Below, one piece after another: positions 21,750-47,345 of a stretch of 64,000 nt of DNA. Where the stretch lies: assembly GCA_017467805.1 (NCBI GenBank), contig JAFUKJ010000051.1, positions 1 through 64,000 of the forward strand. Reading direction: 5' to 3'. A program made the translations under genes and the position numbers. The notes beneath the pieces were generated by a model. The model saw nothing but the letters and a program-made list of their open reading frames with translations, ran no database searches and had not been told where the DNA came from. How positions within the stretch are numbered: the stretch's first letter is position 1; each line of letters opens with the position of its first letter. Origin of the DNA: Lachnospiraceae bacterium (lineage in GTDB: Bacteria; Bacillota; Clostridia; Lachnospirales; Lachnospiraceae).

Positions 21750-24173
21750 TTATTTCACTACAATATTGACAATCTTGCCCTTAACGTAGATTTCCTTCAC
21801 GATATTCTTACCTTCAATGGCAACCTGTACAGATGGAACAGCCTTTGCCTTAGCAATTGCTGAGTCATTCTCCTCATCAACCGAAACCTCAACAGTTCCC
21901 TTAACCTTACCATTTACCTGAATACCGATTGTAACTGTATCCTCTACTAATGCAGCCTCGTCGTATGTTGGCCATGCTTCGAAAGCAATAGTATCCTGAT
22001 GTCCAAGACACTGCCATAACTCTTCTCCAACATGAGGACAGATACATGAGAACATCTTTACAAAGCCCTCTGCATATTCAAGAGGACACTTACCAGCCTT
22101 GTAAGCTGCGTTCATGAAAATCATCATCTGGCTAATCGCTGTATTAAAGCCTAACTGCTCAAAGTCAGAGGTAACCTTCTTAACAGTCTGATGATATACC
22201 TTTGTTAATGTATCATCATTCTCAGTTGTGATATTCTCCTCGTTTGTAAAGAATGCCCATACACGGTTGATAAATCTTCTGGCACCATCTACACCACTTG
22301 CATTCCATGGCTTAGAAACCTCTAATGGTCCCATGAACATCTCATATAATCTTAAAGTATCTGCACCGTAATCACGTACAACATCACTTGGATTTACAAC
22401 AAACTCAGGGAATCTCTTACCCATCTTAATACCGTTAGAGCCAAGAATCATACCCTGATGAACAAGCTTCTGGAATGGCTCCTTAACAGGTGAAAGGCCC
22501 TTATCATATAAATAACGGTTCCAAATTCTTGAGTACATCAAGTGTCCTACTGCATGCTCTGGTCCTCCGATATAAAGGTCAACAGGTAACCAGTGCTTTA
22601 ACAACTCCTGATTAGCAAACTCTTCCTGATTATCAGGGTCAATATATCTCATATAGTACCAGCTTGAACCTGCACTACCTGGCATAGTTGATGTCTCACG
22701 AACACCCTTTATACCATTGTTATCATACTGCTTCCACTCCTCTGCATTTTCAAGTGGAGCCTTACCGTTCTTACCCTTATAGTCATCCAACTCAGGAAGA
22801 ATCAATGGTAACTCTTCATCGCTAAGTACATGAATATTACCATCCTCGCCATGAACAACAGGAACAGGCTCACCCCAGTAACGCTGTCTAGCAAAAATCC
22901 ACTCACGGAAATGATAGTTAACTGTCTTGCGAGCAACACCCTGCTTTACAAGCTTATCTGTAATAGCTTCCTTCGCTTCCTCTACAACAAGTCCTGTGAA
23001 CTCCTCAGAATTCATAAGCTTGCAGCCCTTGCCAAGGTACTCCTTCTTCTCAAATGCCTTCTCGCTAACATCTGCACCATCAATTACCTGAATCATAGGA
23101 CTGTTGTGTGCAATTGCATACTCAAAGTCTCTCTGGTCATGAGAAGGAACAGCCATAACCGCACCTGTACCATAGCTTGCAAGAACGAAATCTCCGATGA
23201 AAAGAGGAACTTCCTTGCCATTTACAGGGTTGATTGCATAGATACCCTTTAAGATGCAGCCTGTCTTTGTCTTATTTAATTCTGTACGGTCCATATCATT
23301 CTTCTTCAATGTCTCATTGATATATGCCTGTACTTCGTCCTGATTCTCAATTCTTGGCATTAAATCCTTCACAATCTGTCCATCTGGAGCTAATACCATA
23401 AATGTAATACCGTAAATTGTCTCGATACATGTTGTATAGATAGAGAAGCTTCCTCCACCAACAATCTGGAAGTCAACCTCTACACCTTCAGACTTACCAA
23501 TCCAGTTTCTCTGAATATCCTTAGTAGACTCAGGCCAGTCAATCTCCTCTAAGCCCTCTAAGAGCTTCTCAGCAAAAGCAGGCTGATTGATAACCCACTG
23601 CTTCATGTTCTTACGAATAACAGGGTAACCGCCTCTCTCTGACTTACCGTCGATAACCTCATCGTTAGATAATACTGTACCTAACTCTTCACACCAGTTA
23701 ACAGGCATATCTACATACTTTGCATAGCCATCTAAATAAAGCTGCTTGAAAATCCACTGTGTCCACTTATAAAAGCTTGGGTCACTTGTTGCAAGCATCT
23801 TAGACCAGTCATAGTCAAAGCCTAATTCCTTCAACTGCTGAGAGAAGGTCTCAATATTCTTCTGTGTGAATCCGTTTGGATGGTTACCAGTACTTACTGC
23901 ATACTGCTCTGCTGGAAGACCAAATGAATCATATCCCATTGGATGCAATACGTTGTAACCCTGCATACGCTTCATTCTGGACATAATATCTGTTGCTGTG
24001 TATCCTTCTGGATGTCCTGCATGAAGACCTACTCCTGAAGGATATGGGAACATATCTAATGCATAATACTTTGGCTTGCTAAAATCCCATACATCTGTTT
24101 TAAATGTTTCGTGCTCAGCCCAATAAGCCTGCCACTTTTTCTCAATCTCACTCGGATTGTAAATCTTTTCCAT
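21750..24173 (-). CDS. leuS: Leucyl-tRNA synthetase
   Basis: This class Ia synthetase charges tRNA-Leu. The start is ATG 24173 with AAGGA 8 nt upstream; the frame extends to 24218 only through the leader. The length of 807 residues is normal. Motifs: HIGH equivalent in PYPSGVGLHAGHPEG, the editing (CP1) domain with TGAVMAVPSHDQRD, WCEELGTVLSNDEV, and the KMSKS loop in the form KMGKRFPEFVVNP, common in clostridial LeuRS. A T-box leader precedes it and a terminator follows. Confidence 0.97.
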   Translation of the reverse strand: MEKIYNPSEIEKKWQAYWAEHETFKTDVWDFSKPKYYALDMFPYPSGVGLHAGHPEGYTATDIMSRMKRMQGYNVLHPMGYDSFGLPAEQYAVSTGNHPNGFTQKNIETFSQQLKELGFDYDWSKMLATSDPSFYKWTQWIFKQLYLDGYAKYVDMPVNWCEELGTVLSNDEVIDGKSERGGYPVIRKNMKQWVINQPAFAEKLLEGLEEIDWPESTKDIQRNWIGKSEGVEVDFQIVGGGSFSIYTTCIETIYGITFMVLAPDGQIVKDLMPRIENQDEVQAYINETLKKNDMDRTELNKTKTGCILKGIYAINPVNGKEVPLFIGDFVLASYGTGAVMAVPSHDQRDFEYAIAHNSPMIQVIDGADVSEKAFEKKEYLGKGCKLMNSEEFTGLVVEEAKEAITDKLVKQGVARKTVNYHFREWIFARQRYWGEPVPVVHGEDGNIHVLSDEELPLILPELDDYKGKNGKAPLENAEEWKQYDNNGIKGVRETSTMPGSAGSSWYYMRYIDPDNQEEFANQELLKHWLPVDLYIGGPEHAVGHLMYSRIWNRYLYDKGLSPVKEPFQKLVHQGMILGSNGIKMGKRFPEFVVNPSDVVRDYGADTLRLYEMFMGPLEVSKPWNASGVDGARRFINRVWAFFTNEENITTENDDTLTKVYHQTVKKVTSDFEQLGFNTAISQMMIFMNAAYKAGKCPLEYAEGFVKMFSCICPHVGEELWQCLGHQDTIAFEAWPTYDEAALVEDTVTIGIQVNGKVKGTVEVSVDEENDSAIAKAKAVPSVQVAIEGKNIVKEIYVKGKIVNIVVK

Positions 24174-24186
24174 TGTCTTCGTCCTT

Positions 24187-24440
24187 TCTGCATAAAAAAA
24201 TCCCTTCATCTCATTCATATAAGAGACGAAAGGATAAACCTACCGCGGTACCACTCTAATTCAGGAATACTCCTGCACTTAACATCCTATAACGGGAACT
24301 CCCGCCAAGACCTACTACATCTTCTATACGTTCAGTCTCAGAGCTCATGGACGAGTTCAAAGTCTCTTAGGTTATCTCACACCAACCGATAACTCTCTGT
24401 TGCTTAAAAGTCACTTCTACTACTTCCATTCATCGCCTTT
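24187..24440 (-). promoter_or_regulatory. T-box riboswitch leader of leuS
   Basis: The T-box sequence AGAGTGGTACCGCGGT (minus strand, 24242-24257) is followed by a terminator (ATCCTTTCGTCTC paired with GAGATGAAGGGAT plus seven T, 24194-24235). Upstream lies a Stem I region starting near AAAGGCGATGAATGG (about 24440), with the AGTAG element. A CTC triplet in GAACTCGTCC (24353-24355) is a plausible Leu specifier. Uncharged tRNA-Leu would stabilise the antiterminator and raise leuS expression. Confidence 0.93.
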
Positions 24441-24493
24441 ACATATACGTTTATTATGTTACTAGTTTCCATTCAAAAAGTCAAATCCTTTGT

Positions 24494-42084: not shown

Positions 42085-42215
42085 TTTCCTAACACCCTCT
42101 CACTTTCTATCCTATCTTTATAAATATAACATACATTTCGTACTTTTTTGACACAATATTCTCATTTTCTACATATCATATAGCAAGAGTAAATGCAAAA
42201 GAAAGGTGAACTACA

Positions 42216-43412
42216 ATGGAACTATGCAACTATCCCTGTCCCAACCAAACCCGTCACTATGAAATCGAAGCAATTCAAATCCCCATCGTTTACAATAGAT
42301 TTGGAGATTATGACCCTGACGGACTGCTCTATGTTTTAAAAAAGGATGCAACGCGCATCCGCAATGGCGCACTACAAAACTTTCATCAGGACATCCCGCA
42401 GCCCTACGAAGAAGTTATGCCATTGGTGATTCGAGCAAATGTCGGCGAAAAAATAATCGTTACGTTTTCTCATTCTTTAAACCGTCCACTCTCCATTCAT
42501 GTCCAAGGACTTGATTACGACGTCCAAACATCTGATGGTGCAAGCGTCGGCTTTAACAAAGATTCCACTACCCTGCATCAGATTACCTACACATGGTATG
42601 CCGCCAAAGAAGGTGTATTCATTTTTCATGATATGGGCGATTCCACAGGCAATGAGGATGGCACAAATATTCACGGATTATTTGGTGCTATCATTGTGGA
42701 AGCCACAGGTTCCAAATGGTTAAATCCACAGAATGGAGACGAATTAGAAAGTGGTCTTTTTGCGGATATTTACCATCCGTCCAAGCCTGCTTTTCGCGAG
42801 TATGCCGTATTTTTCCACGATGAACTGGAAATCAAAAATAAAGACGGTGAACAGCCAACAGACCCACACACTGGCCTGCCCTCTTCCACAACTGCCATCA
42901 GCTATCGTTCCGAACCAATGCGTAATCGTCCTCCTCTTACTCACGACCACGCAGATACAGGCGAAGATATTTCTATGAGTTCGTGGGTATATCAGGACCC
43001 TGCACCGCCCATTCCTCGCGCCTATGTTGGTGACCCATCCAAAATCCGTCTCATTCATGGCGGTGTGAAGGAAACCCATGTATTTCATCTGCATAACCAC
43101 CAGTGGCGTTTGGAAGGCGATAATCCTAATTCAACCATCATCGACTCTATCTCCATAAGTCCGCAGGAATGCTATACCTTGGATATTCTGCATGGTGCAG
43201 GCAGTTTAAATGGAACCTTTGGAGATGTTATTTTTCACTGCCATCTCTATCCACATTTCCATGAAGGTATGTGGACTCTTTGGAGAATCCATGACCGCTT
43301 AGAAGATGGAACAGGAGCACTTCCTGATGGCACGGCCCTCAAGGCAGATTCTTCGTCCTTAAGTCAGAACTTGAGCGTCACGGTGGTCTCGATGCCTATA
43401 TCAGAAAAGTAG
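42216..43412 (+). CDS. Multicopper oxidase, N-terminal fragment (module A) of a frameshifted gene
   Basis: This 398-residue frame starts after AAAGGTG and has no signal peptide. It holds module A of a three-module cupredoxin protein: PLVIRANVGEKIIV, NIHGLFGAIIVE, AISYRSEPMRNR. Then come two canonical copper motifs: HVFHLH (HxxHxH) and HCHLYPHFHEGM (HCHxxxHxxxxM, type 1 plus type 3 ligands). The true frame is lost between about 43330 and 43358, and the last 25 residues are out-of-frame sequence. The continuation, in frame from about 43340 (GRFFVLKSELERHGGLDAY), leads into the next entry. Reconstructed length is about 1114 residues. A laccase-like oxidase in an anaerobe is unusual. Confidence 0.85.
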   Translation: MELCNYPCPNQTRHYEIEAIQIPIVYNRFGDYDPDGLLYVLKKDATRIRNGALQNFHQDIPQPYEEVMPLVIRANVGEKIIVTFSHSLNRPLSIHVQGLDYDVQTSDGASVGFNKDSTTLHQITYTWYAAKEGVFIFHDMGDSTGNEDGTNIHGLFGAIIVEATGSKWLNPQNGDELESGLFADIYHPSKPAFREYAVFFHDELEIKNKDGEQPTDPHTGLPSSTTAISYRSEPMRNRPPLTHDHADTGEDISMSSWVYQDPAPPIPRAYVGDPSKIRLIHGGVKETHVFHLHNHQWRLEGDNPNSTIIDSISISPQECYTLDILHGAGSLNGTFGDVIFHCHLYPHFHEGMWTLWRIHDRLEDGTGALPDGTALKADSSSLSQNLSVTVVSMPISEK

Positions 43413-45559
43413 AATGTCAGAAAATCCGTGTAGAACCGCTTGTTATCCGTGCAAATGCTGGTGACTGCATTGAAATCCACCTTACCAACCTTCTCCCTGA
43501 AATGCTGGAGGGAAGTCCATTTCAAATGGAAACAATAACGGATATCGCTGGCTATCACATTCATTTGGTTAAGTTCGACACAATTGTTTCCGACGGTGCC
43601 GCAAATGGTTGGAATAATATTGCTGGTGCCAGAAAATATGAAACTCTTATTGAACGCTTTTTTGCAAATACCGAACTGCATACTGTATTCTTCCATGACC
43701 ATCTTTATGCAAATTCTCATCAGCAGCATGGCGTATTTGGTGCATTGATTGTCGAAGAAGCAGGCGCTACCTTCCATGATGTACGAACAGGCAAGGAGCT
43801 TCCCTTTGGCACAAAAGCAGTTATCAAAAGGAAGGACGGAACAGCCTTCCGCGAATTCGCATTATTTGTTCATGACTTTGCGCTGCTATTTGACAAAGAC
43901 GGAAATGCTTTAAATCCACCTGAGGTGCCAGGCTCCCATGATGACCCTGGTGTGATGGGCATTAATTACCGTTGCGAGCCAATGCGGGAACGTTTAAAAT
44001 GTAACGAAGACCCTGCCTATATCTTCAGCTCCTTAGTTCACGGCGACCCTGCGACTCCTGTCTTGGAAACCTATCCTGGAGATGAAATGATAATTCGTTT
44101 ACTGGATGGCGCTCATGAGGAACAGCATTCCTTTAATCTGACTGGTTTATCATGGAAGAAAGAGGTTACTGACAGCTTTTCTCCTACTGTTGCCTCGCAG
44201 ACACTTGGTATTTCGGAAGCATTTAATATACAAATCAAAAAGGACTACCGCCCTGGTGATTACTTATATTATTTCGGTGGCATAGATGATGCATGGCTTG
44301 GATTGTGGGGAATCATTCGCGCCCACCGCCATATAAACAAACGTCTTAAGCCTATCTGCAGACCTCGGGACAGCATTCTCCCTCTGCCACCATGTCCTTC
44401 CAAGGATGCCGTCATTCGTCACTATGAAATCGCTGCTATACAGAAGGATATTCCATACAATCGTCATGGCGACCATGACCCTGACGGTCTCCTCTTTGTA
44501 CCATTAGAGGAAGTCGAAGCTGCAAAAGAGCAAAATTACCAGCCCAAGCCGCTTATTTTACGAGCGAATGCAGGCGATTGGATTGAGGTTACCCTGCACA
44601 ACCTCTTTGATGCGCCAATTCCTTATTTTGATTACCCGAGGGTTCCTCTTGATATGAAGCATAAGCCCTCTATGCGCGTTTCCATCAATCCGCAGTTTCT
44701 TAACTATGACCCGGTTTGTCATTCTGGCATCAATGTTGGCTACAATAATGAGGAGCAGACCGTGGGTGTCGGAGAAAGTAAAAAGTATCTGTGGCACGCC
44801 GACAAAGAATACGGCTCCTGTCTGATACAGTCCTTTGGTGATATGCGAAATCACAGATATCATGGGCTGTTTGGTGCTATTATCATTGAGCCTGTAAATG
44901 CAAAATGGTATAAAAATTTCTCGCTCTCAAAAGCCATTTATGATGAAGAGGCTGCAATCATTGCCCCTGGCATAGAGCGCTTCCGCGAATGCGTTGTTTT
45001 TGCCCAAAATGGAATTCGTATGCTGGATAAAAATAACATGCTAGTCAAGACCGCCGTAGGCGAAGATGGTGAAGATGCCGATGCGGAGGATACTGGCGAG
45101 AAAGGTTACAATTATCGTTCGGAACGCTTTGCAAACAGATTAAAGAAAAATTCTTTGATTTCCAAAGTATTCAGCAGCCGCGTTCACGGAGACCCTGCAA
45201 CTCCCATTTTCAAGGCTTATGCAGGTGAGCGTGTCATATTCCGCACACTCATGCCTGCCGACAAACCGAGAAATATAAGCTTTTGTATTCACGGTCACAC
45301 TTGGAAACAGCAGCCTGCAGATGCACTTTCACGCGTCATCCCTCTTCAGGGCGCAGTCAGTGTTGGAAACACCTTCGACATAGAATTAGAAAATGGTGCC
45401 TCTGCACCAGGCGATTATCTTTATCGCTCAGGCAGTTTCAAGTGGGATGTCGAATCAGGTCTGTGGGGAATTTTCAGAGTTCTGAAGCATGGTATTCGCT
45501 GCAAATGTAAGAACCTTTGCAGAAAAGCATTTGAATGTATCTGTAAAACAGGTTCTTGA
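43358..45559 (+). CDS. Multicopper oxidase, C-terminal part (modules B and C) of a frameshifted gene
   Basis: This frame has no start of its own; the first ATG (43502) cuts into a domain and has no ribosome binding site. Module B opens with KIRVEPLVIRANAGDCIEI and carries the other two copper motifs: YHIHLV (HxH) and FFHDHLYANSHQQHG (HxH). Module C begins near 44417 with YNRHGDHDPDGLL, repeating module A's YNRFGDYDPDGLL. It keeps RYHGLFGAIIIE and YNYRSERF but has lost most copper ligands. Each module has two cupredoxin domains, six in total as in ceruloplasmin. A bidirectional terminator follows. Confidence 0.85.
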   Translation, partial: LKSELERHGGLDAYIRKVECQKIRVEPLVIRANAGDCIEIHLTNLLPEMLEGSPFQMETITDIAGYHIHLVKFDTIVSDGAANGWNNIAGARKYETLIERFFANTELHTVFFHDHLYANSHQQHGVFGALIVEEAGATFHDVRTGKELPFGTKAVIKRKDGTAFREFALFVHDFALLFDKDGNALNPPEVPGSHDDPGVMGINYRCEPMRERLKCNEDPAYIFSSLVHGDPATPVLETYPGDEMIIRLLDGAHEEQHSFNLTGLSWKKEVTDSFSPTVASQTLGISEAFNIQIKKDYRPGDYLYYFGGIDDAWLGLWGIIRAHRHINKRLKPICRPRDSILPLPPCPSKDAVIRHYEIAAIQKDIPYNRHGDHDPDGLLFVPLEEVEAAKEQNYQPKPLILRANAGDWIEVTLHNLFDAPIPYFDYPRVPLDMKHKPSMRVSINPQFLNYDPVCHSGINVGYNNEEQTVGVGESKKYLWHADKEYGSCLIQSFGDMRNHRYHGLFGAIIIEPVNAKWYKNFSLSKAIYDEEAAIIAPGIERFRECVVFAQNGIRMLDKNNMLVKTAVGEDGEDADAEDTGEKGYNYRSERFANRLKKNSLISKVFSSRVHGDPATPIFKAYAGERVIFRTLMPADKPRNISFCIHGHTWKQQPADALSRVIPLQGAVSVGNTFDIELENGASAPGDYLYRSGSFKWDVESGLWGIFRVLKHGIRCKCKNLCRKAFECICKTGS

Positions 45560-46191: not shown

Positions 46192-47301
46192 CTACTTCCA
46201 TCCATAAGAAATCATGATACCACCGCATTTAATTAAAGAAACCTCACCTTTATTTTTCTTCAAATATTTGATAATACCATTCTGTTGCCTACAATAATCC
46301 TCTGCTTCTTTTCGGTTCATACCATGATTCATGAAATAAGCAATGTTTTCTTCTATTTCCTTATCTGTTTTTTCATCATCCCAGTGGTCAGCTTTTATAC
46401 AGCTTTCCAACAGTTCTTTATAATCTATTTGCTCTGGCTCCAGATACGTTACCCTATCATTCATTCGGCAGGATACATTTTTCAAACCTGCCTTTTTCAT
46501 ATAATACGGAATTTTCATTGCAATTGAATAATCGCGGTTTTGCATTTCTAATTCTGTCTGCCACAGCTTCTTCAATCCATCATGCTGGCATAACTTTAGA
46601 TAATCCATACCTTGCACATATAGACCATCCGCCTCAAATTCTCGATTACACTCCATGCTGACAAGGATTCCGCCCTCTTTTACATGGCTTGCCATCTTAC
46701 GCAGAAATCCCTCTCCATTATCTACATGCCTTAGAACTGCCTGACTGATTACCATGTCATACTTAGTAGTTACCTGATATTCCATAATATCTGACAAAAC
46801 AAACTTGGCATTTATATTAGAATGAGAAAAAATATCCTTCGCTGCATCTAGCATTGTCTTTGAAAAATCAATTCCTGTGTAGGTACTTCCCTCTGGTAGT
46901 AATGGCATCATCATCAATCCCATAGCTCCAAATCCACATCCACAATCCAGTATAGATATCGGCTTATCTATTTTCCACACATCACGAATCAAAAAACGTA
47001 TGTAATCTTCATTCCACATTGTCTTTCTTGTTCTCTGTAAATATTCGAGTCTCTCTTCCCAATATTCTACAGTACCTGAATTAGACGGACAATACTCTTG
47101 CTCTAAAGGAACTAATCCTAATAAAGCATCAACAGATACTCCAAAATAATTACTAATCTGAGGTAGAACGGAAATATCAGGATATACCACTCCATTCTCC
47201 CACTTGCTGATAGTTTGATAAGAAACGCAAAGAATGTCGCCAAGCTCCTGCTGAGTCAGATTATTCTTCTTTCTCAGCTCAGCCAACTTAAAATTAATCA
47301 T
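46192..47301 (-). CDS. XRE HTH-SAM methyltransferase fusion
   Basis: About 369 residues from ATG 47301 (AGGGG 9 nt upstream). An N-terminal Cro/C1 HTH (LTQQELGDILCVSYQTISKWENG, about 5-60) is fused to a class I methyltransferase: ILDCGCGFGAMGLMM, YTGIDFSKTMLDAAKD, FVLSDIMEY, MVISQAVLRHVDNGEGFLRK. The C-terminus of about 80 residues is helical. The fusion suggests a regulator whose methylation activity or SAM binding is tied to DNA binding, or a self-regulated small-molecule methyltransferase. Substrate unknown. Confidence 0.85.
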   Translation of the reverse strand: MINFKLAELRKKNNLTQQELGDILCVSYQTISKWENGVVYPDISVLPQISNYFGVSVDALLGLVPLEQEYCPSNSGTVEYWEERLEYLQRTRKTMWNEDYIRFLIRDVWKIDKPISILDCGCGFGAMGLMMMPLLPEGSTYTGIDFSKTMLDAAKDIFSHSNINAKFVLSDIMEYQVTTKYDMVISQAVLRHVDNGEGFLRKMASHVKEGGILVSMECNREFEADGLYVQGMDYLKLCQHDGLKKLWQTELEMQNRDYSIAMKIPYYMKKAGLKNVSCRMNDRVTYLEPEQIDYKELLESCIKADHWDDEKTDKEIEENIAYFMNHGMNRKEAEDYCRQQNGIIKYLKKNKGEVSLIKCGGIMISYGWK

Positions 47302-47345
47302 ATGCATAATCCCCTTTCTTTTTTCTTAATCATATCAGTATCGGT

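Follow-up and report, generated by a model that had tools for sequence, protein, structure and literature searches.

The gene at positions 42216..45559 of the window (the whole stretch of 64,000 nucleotides analysed here, taken from contig JAFUKJ010000051.1 of the Lachnospiraceae bacterium assembly GCA_017467805.1) is, as judged from its sequence, a damaged copy of a gene for a six-domain multicopper oxidase, homologous to the MnxG family. When the gene is considered together with its relatives it probably belongs to a system in which an MnxG-type metal oxidase of the spore coat is produced late in the mother cell under the control of sigma-K, with a DUF2935 protein in place of MnxE and MnxF, the copy in the source genome being in decay.

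Relatives were collected by one scan of species genomes, which gave 449 matching stretches; the best 80 were kept as loci (numbered with the prefix L). These loci are the top matches to a single query, stem mostly from metagenome bins, include three contigs already present among other relatives compared, and are not a random sample. Their record titles assign most of them to Lachnospiraceae or other Clostridia, with animal guts as the source of many, and with Velocimicrobium porci, Acetivibrio ethanolgignens, Diplocloster modestus, Faecalicatena contorta, Clostridium neonatale and C. methylpentosum among the cultured hosts. One of the loci, L133 (3945-7659), comes from a Methanosarcina assembly, in which a small contig carries an mnxG of clostridial type; this is probably contamination.

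Family membership and copper ligands

The window gene is read in two open reading frames (ORFs), which carry the following features.

42216..43412, plus strand: ORF1, 398 aa; module A (domains 1-2) to about residue 375, then out-of-frame residues
43077..43094, plus strand: HVFHLH (HxxHxH) in ORF1; type-1 and trinuclear ligands by homology
43236..43271, plus strand: HCHLYPHFHEGM motif in ORF1; trinuclear His and type-1 Cys, His and Met by homology
43502..45559, plus strand: ORF2, 685 aa, with an open frame from 43328 onwards; remainder of module B plus module C, covering most of domain 3 and domains 4 to 6
43553..43570, plus strand: YHIHLV in ORF2; HxH of domain 3
43694..43732, plus strand: HDHLYANSHQQHG motif in ORF2; HxH of domain 3
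45500..45556, plus strand: Cys-rich C-terminal tail, five Cys within the last 19 residues

Both ORFs have MnxG (PDB 9bxa_A) as their best match among solved structures, with E-values of 5.8e-175 for ORF1 and 5.8e-208 for ORF2. The next-best matches of ORF1, at E-values of about 1e-12, are two-domain (small) laccases and lie in the copper region of domain 2; those enzymes are separate short chains that form trimers, whereas the present protein is one six-domain chain. ORF1 is 85% identical to relatives L101 and L123 over 375 aa, ORF2 shares 77-83% identity with its ten best relatives, and L123, which is intact, aligns to MnxG from end to end (residues 13-1198 to 3-1206). The MnxG of Bacillus sp. 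PL-12 / SG-1 (PDB 9bxa, Mnx complex) resembles the relatives in length, in its three modules and in having the same four motifs in the same order. Cys-rich tails similar to that of the window gene are seen in the alignment in L031, L032, L033 and L035.

Three homologous modules, six cupredoxin domains and a ceruloplasmin-like plan had been proposed in a first-pass annotation of this DNA, and all are borne out: ORF1 aligns not only with its own counterpart in MnxG but also with three other stretches of that protein, and ORF2 matches ORF1 within the genome. The likeness to ceruloplasmin and hephaestin extends to six cupredoxin domains in three pairs, a weak sequence match and a fold match obtained with a poor model. 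The difference lies in the position of the trinuclear site, which in those proteins is between domains 1 and 6 and not between 2 and 3, as a passage of PMC3600357 describes. ORF1 has no HxH ahead of residue 243 and ORF2 has no HCH, which does not agree with a site shared by domains 1 and 6; nor was a canonical HxH pair seen by eye in domain 1 of the intact homologues. Module C, as had been suggested, retains the landmarks of the fold and has lost most ligands (no HCH, one HxH).

The four motifs occur where they had been placed and are highly conserved: HVFHxH and HxHxVKFD are each present in 79/80 relatives, HCHxxxHxxxxM and FFHDH in all 80, and the four together in 78, while the type-1 His is found in 80/80. 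In the window gene and its relatives the C and D motifs (domain 2) precede the A and B motifs (domain 3). This order had been described as permuted; it is not new, because the same order of domain 2 and domain 3 ligands is already in print for MnxG. It is stated in a passage of PMC3618234, citing van Waasbergen 1996, and according to PMC3600357 every bacterial six-domain oxidase analysed there has its trinuclear site between domains 2 and 3, a set whose listed members include C. methylpentosum and C. perfringens. The prediction of a single copper site, made up of the last part of module A and the first part of module B, is supported by homology to MnxG. Structure prediction for residues 1-1194 of L123 (18 alignment rows) gave a mean predicted local distance difference test score (pLDDT) of 56.8 and a predicted template modelling score (pTM) of 0.49, too poor for distances between motifs to be read, and for residues 1-631 (43 rows) a pLDDT of 58.5 and a pTM of 0.50, with domain 2 among the worst parts. 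In a Foldseek search with the first model 9bxa ranked first, which is weak evidence given the quality of the model.

A type-1 site differing from that of MnxG was considered, since 9bxa reads HCHLYPAF, and rejected: the title of that entry names an Mnx H340A complex, and a Priestia megaterium MnxG has HCHLYPHF.

The break at the A/B junction

43320..43345, plus strand: A/B junction; linker of the relatives missing, frame changing at about 43326-43334

Six intact relatives are 1228-1248 aa long, and their genes exceed the window span by 343-403 bp; the protein of about 1114 residues reconstructed in the first-pass annotation is an artefact of this missing stretch. In alignment with the intact relatives, homology of ORF1 stops at LPDGTAL and homology of ORF2 restarts at WHGPQGRFF, and the 103-132 codons between the LPDG and WHDPQG-type edges of the six relatives are absent. 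The first part of domain 3 is absent, and ORF2 reaches its first start codon only beyond that point; the missing part holds no copper motif, and no ligand motif is lost. The junction DNA, GATGGCACGGCCCTCAAGG, resembles the left edge when read in one frame and, in the other frame, the right edge (in L123, TGGCACGACCCGCAGGG), and would suit a deletion between short repeats. A one-base frameshift was rejected on account of the missing linker and the shortfall in length. With both linker and frame lost, the oxidase of the window is probably non-functional.

Both ORFs have a low proportion of non-synonymous differences (pN 0.088-0.142) at a high proportion of synonymous ones (pS 0.73-0.88) when compared with five relatives, and constraint on both must therefore have been strong until recently. 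The same apparent constraint, together with the state of the source genome, a draft of 121 contigs, speaks for another explanation, in which the living cell has an unbroken gene and the gap is a fault of assembly. It could be such a fault, which would remove the decay from our interpretation; we nonetheless regard this as unlikely, because what is lacking is a long piece of sequence and not a single slipped base, and because 13 of the 80 other loci also have the gene divided between two or more ORFs (L067, L076, L077, L081, L094, L095, L118, L119, L122, L125, L126, L128 and L133), though most of these are bins too.

The window copy does not encode one continuous chain of some 1217-1230 aa; in 67/80 relatives the gene is one ORF, some of these being cut by contig ends (at least three loci besides the 13 with a divided gene). 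Breaks or internal gaps of their own, each different, are present in the MnxG-like genes of L035 (14589-15041), L038 (8863-11963) and L034 (1574-3427). Differing breaks across relatives are likely to reflect repeated loss, or else repeated misassembly of a three-module gene.

It might also be supposed that ORF1 and ORF2 are two genes by design, whose chains assemble across the A/B junction. The break does fall in a variable linker, and L122 is split at the same place (399 aa and 785 aa). Against this, the start of domain 3 is absent from both ORFs, ORF2 having its first start codon beyond it, and in L101 and L123, which are closest to the window gene, the protein is a single chain; a two-gene design is accordingly very improbable.

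Promoter and proposed partner gene

42153..42180, plus strand: sigma-K-type promoter, AC-N17-CATATCATA, exact match, 35 bp before the mnxG-like ATG

The pattern sought was AC-N16/17-CATANNNTA. It has 7 matches in the window, compared with a mean of 3.0 after shuffling, and a single match alone therefore means little. Enough upstream DNA for the comparison is available at 76 of the 80 loci, and 459 ORFs of at least 200 aa beginning with ATG, chosen mechanically from the same loci and in some cases spurious, served as controls. An exact site lies 20-70 bp before the first gene at 30/76 loci, as against 2/459 controls; with up to one mismatch the figures are 66/76 and 19/459. Forty-five of the 66 sites are at 31-36 bp, and a site with up to one mismatch precedes 46/49 loci that have a full DUF2935 gene in front. 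Extending the search to 300 bp gives exact matches at 31/76 loci once a wrongly cut stretch, L102, is set aside, where 30 shuffles gave a mean of 1.0 and a maximum of 3, and at 6/77 on the reverse strand.

The -35 element distinguishes sigma-K (AC) from sigma-E (ATA), as stated for C. difficile in a passage of PMC3789822. Sixty-five loci have a CATANNNT -10 element; 37 of these have AC at the sigma-K spacing and 3 have ATA at the sigma-E spacing. A sigma-E promoter, whose strict exact pattern occurs at 0/77 loci, was rejected. The source genome encodes SigK (NF004471, over cut-off) and SpoIVA. Before the presumed mnxE on a Priestia plasmid there is also a sigma-K-type site (L134:7296), one of three on that strand in a 19.6-kb stretch.

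The gene most often associated with the oxidase encodes DUF2935 (PF11155), which we take to be a ferritin-like metal-binding protein. It stands directly upstream on the same strand in 52/80 loci (50 full, 2 truncated), and the gap to mnxG is -20 to 21 bp in 50 of those 52. Of the remaining 28 loci, 6 begin close to a contig end; the DUF2935 gene is downstream in 2, on the opposite strand in 3 and 1.6 kb upstream in 1. Within a set of 145 genomes, nine of which have an MnxG match (the source genome included, and two of the nine being less than 90% complete), DUF2935 is present in 27, including 9/9 of those with MnxG (Fisher 7.7e-8, uncorrected for kinship). Its best solved relative is PDB 3d19 (E 1.3e-28), and the Glu/His pairs 21/22, 165/169, 204/205 and 286/290, numbered as in the protein of the source genome, are kept in 54/54 copies.

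The DUF2935 gene of the source genome is located away from the oxidase gene (L050, contig C66, 164-1036, minus strand). Its identity to the eleven best-matching copies of the relatives is 58-69%, and an exact sigma-K-type site lies 29 bp upstream of its ATG. An unnamed ORF begins after it, at the contig end; a Pfam search with this short ORF gave no match. A conserved third gene of the operon was looked for and rejected, the largest downstream cluster among the 80 loci having 4 members.

One six-domain oxidase already listed in the literature is that of Clostridium methylpentosum, given as 1231 aa in a passage of PMC3600357; the corresponding locus, L132, also encodes 1231 aa, is 67% identical to the query, has all four motifs and carries an exact sigma-K-type site 64 bp upstream. 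It differs in that its DUF2935 gene lies upstream on the opposite strand.

Proposed role and competing explanations

MnxG deposits manganese oxide on the spores of some bacilli. Bacillar MnxG is spore-borne, according to a passage of PMC5622069, and a title in the reference list of PMC3618234 names the exosporium. The clostridial system differs from the bacillar one in that MnxE and MnxF were not found in the source genome, DUF2935 occurs instead, the hosts are anaerobic and the window copy is broken. We suggest the following sequence of events. In gut Clostridia, chiefly Lachnospiraceae, a sigma-K promoter would drive expression of the oxidase in the mother cell at a late stage of sporulation, in most cases from a two-gene operon in which DUF2935 comes first; the DUF2935 gene of the source genome is located elsewhere, with a sigma-K-type site of its own. 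The oxidase would be deposited on the coat or the exosporium of the spore, where its Cys-rich C-terminal tail would suit cross-linking, and would meet oxygen after the spore leaves the gut. By homology, intact relatives would bind a single type 1 (blue) copper in domain 2 and, between domains 2 and 3, a single trinuclear cluster; the type-1 copper would take single electrons from a metal, most likely Mn(II) and possibly Fe(II), and pass them to the trinuclear cluster, which would reduce O2 to water. The sequences show the family, the motifs, the order of the genes, the promoter pattern and the gap in the assembly; spore location, copper loading, substrate, partnership and loss of function are what we infer from these data. 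The first-pass annotation had noted that a signal peptide is missing and had thought this odd; none was seen by eye, and its absence would be no surprise for a protein synthesised in the mother cell and deposited on the spore, a route which the sigma-K-type site suggests.

Several observations weigh against this interpretation. The two ORFs score 135.5 and 149.6 bits with the NCBIfam MnxG model NF041487, for which the cut-off is 3100; three clostridial homologues likewise fall below it. The exact promoter pattern is present at only 30/76 loci, and at 10/76 it is absent even when one mismatch is allowed. DUF2935 was not found in the fetched flanks of 16/80 loci. The SigK equivalog model TIGR02846 is below its cut-off in the source genome, as it is in all 14 control genomes. 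Co-occurrence of MnxG with SpoIVA, tried as support, is uninformative (9/9 versus 120/145, p 0.17). Finally, MnxE and MnxF were not found in 8/9 MnxG genomes, and substrate and activity may differ accordingly.

The last of these points bears on the nature of the substrate. Two ORFs of 95 and 107 aa that precede mnxG on a Priestia plasmid, named MnxE and MnxF from their position, were used as queries; at an E-value of 0.001 neither has a match in the source genome, and neither was found in the fetched flanks of the 80 loci. One genome of the nine, G114, has matches, and they adjoin its mnxG. There, in an order-level relative (L037, 8802-13065), MnxE-like and MnxF-like stretches stand before mnxG, and both types of partner thus occur in one order. 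Oxidation of manganese in bacilli requires MnxE together with MnxF (passage in PMC5622069). It is conceivable, then, that the substrate is not manganese, and that the enzyme is a ferroxidase of the spore coat or a scavenger of oxygen or peroxide, with DUF2935 storing the oxidised metal. Consistent with this are the lack of MnxE and MnxF matches in 8/9 MnxG genomes, the conserved Glu/His pairs of DUF2935 and the name of its relative 3d19, 'conserved metalloprotein', and a passage of PMC3789822 in which the coats of C. difficile contain catalases, superoxide dismutase (SOD) and peroxiredoxin. The sequence, however, is closest to the manganese oxidase MnxG, far above ceruloplasmin, and we hold a substrate other than manganese to be somewhat doubtful. 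Presence of MnxE and MnxF in the genome may be a trait of the Mnx complex and not of the oxidase family.

What is new is the setting, a sigma-K-controlled DUF2935-MnxG operon in gut Clostridia; the order of the motifs adds nothing to what was known. A literature search at the level of titles and the beginnings of abstracts found no paper on such an operon, and for DUF2935 a match, at title and abstract level, only for a fungus. More tentatively, and with slightly less than even confidence, we propose that the Mnx spore system exists in another version in anaerobic gut Clostridia, controlled by sigma-K and with the ferritin-like DUF2935 protein replacing MnxE and MnxF; its oxidase would be a coat enzyme that uses oxygen to mineralise metal and is active only outside the anoxic gut. 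Lachnospiraceae are anaerobes, and it is a puzzle that an enzyme needing both oxygen and copper should be kept in many anaerobes of the gut; a spore operon of this kind would, if real, provide an answer. It would also bring bacterial biomineralisation of manganese (or iron) to the animal gut, give DUF2935 a functional setting, and offer a natural comparison for the role of MnxE and MnxF.

Elsewhere in the window, a T-box leader is present at 24219-24442 on the minus strand, before an 822-aa ORF at 21750-24218, and the ORF at 46192-47307 appears by eye to join a helix-turn-helix domain to a methyltransferase-like part.

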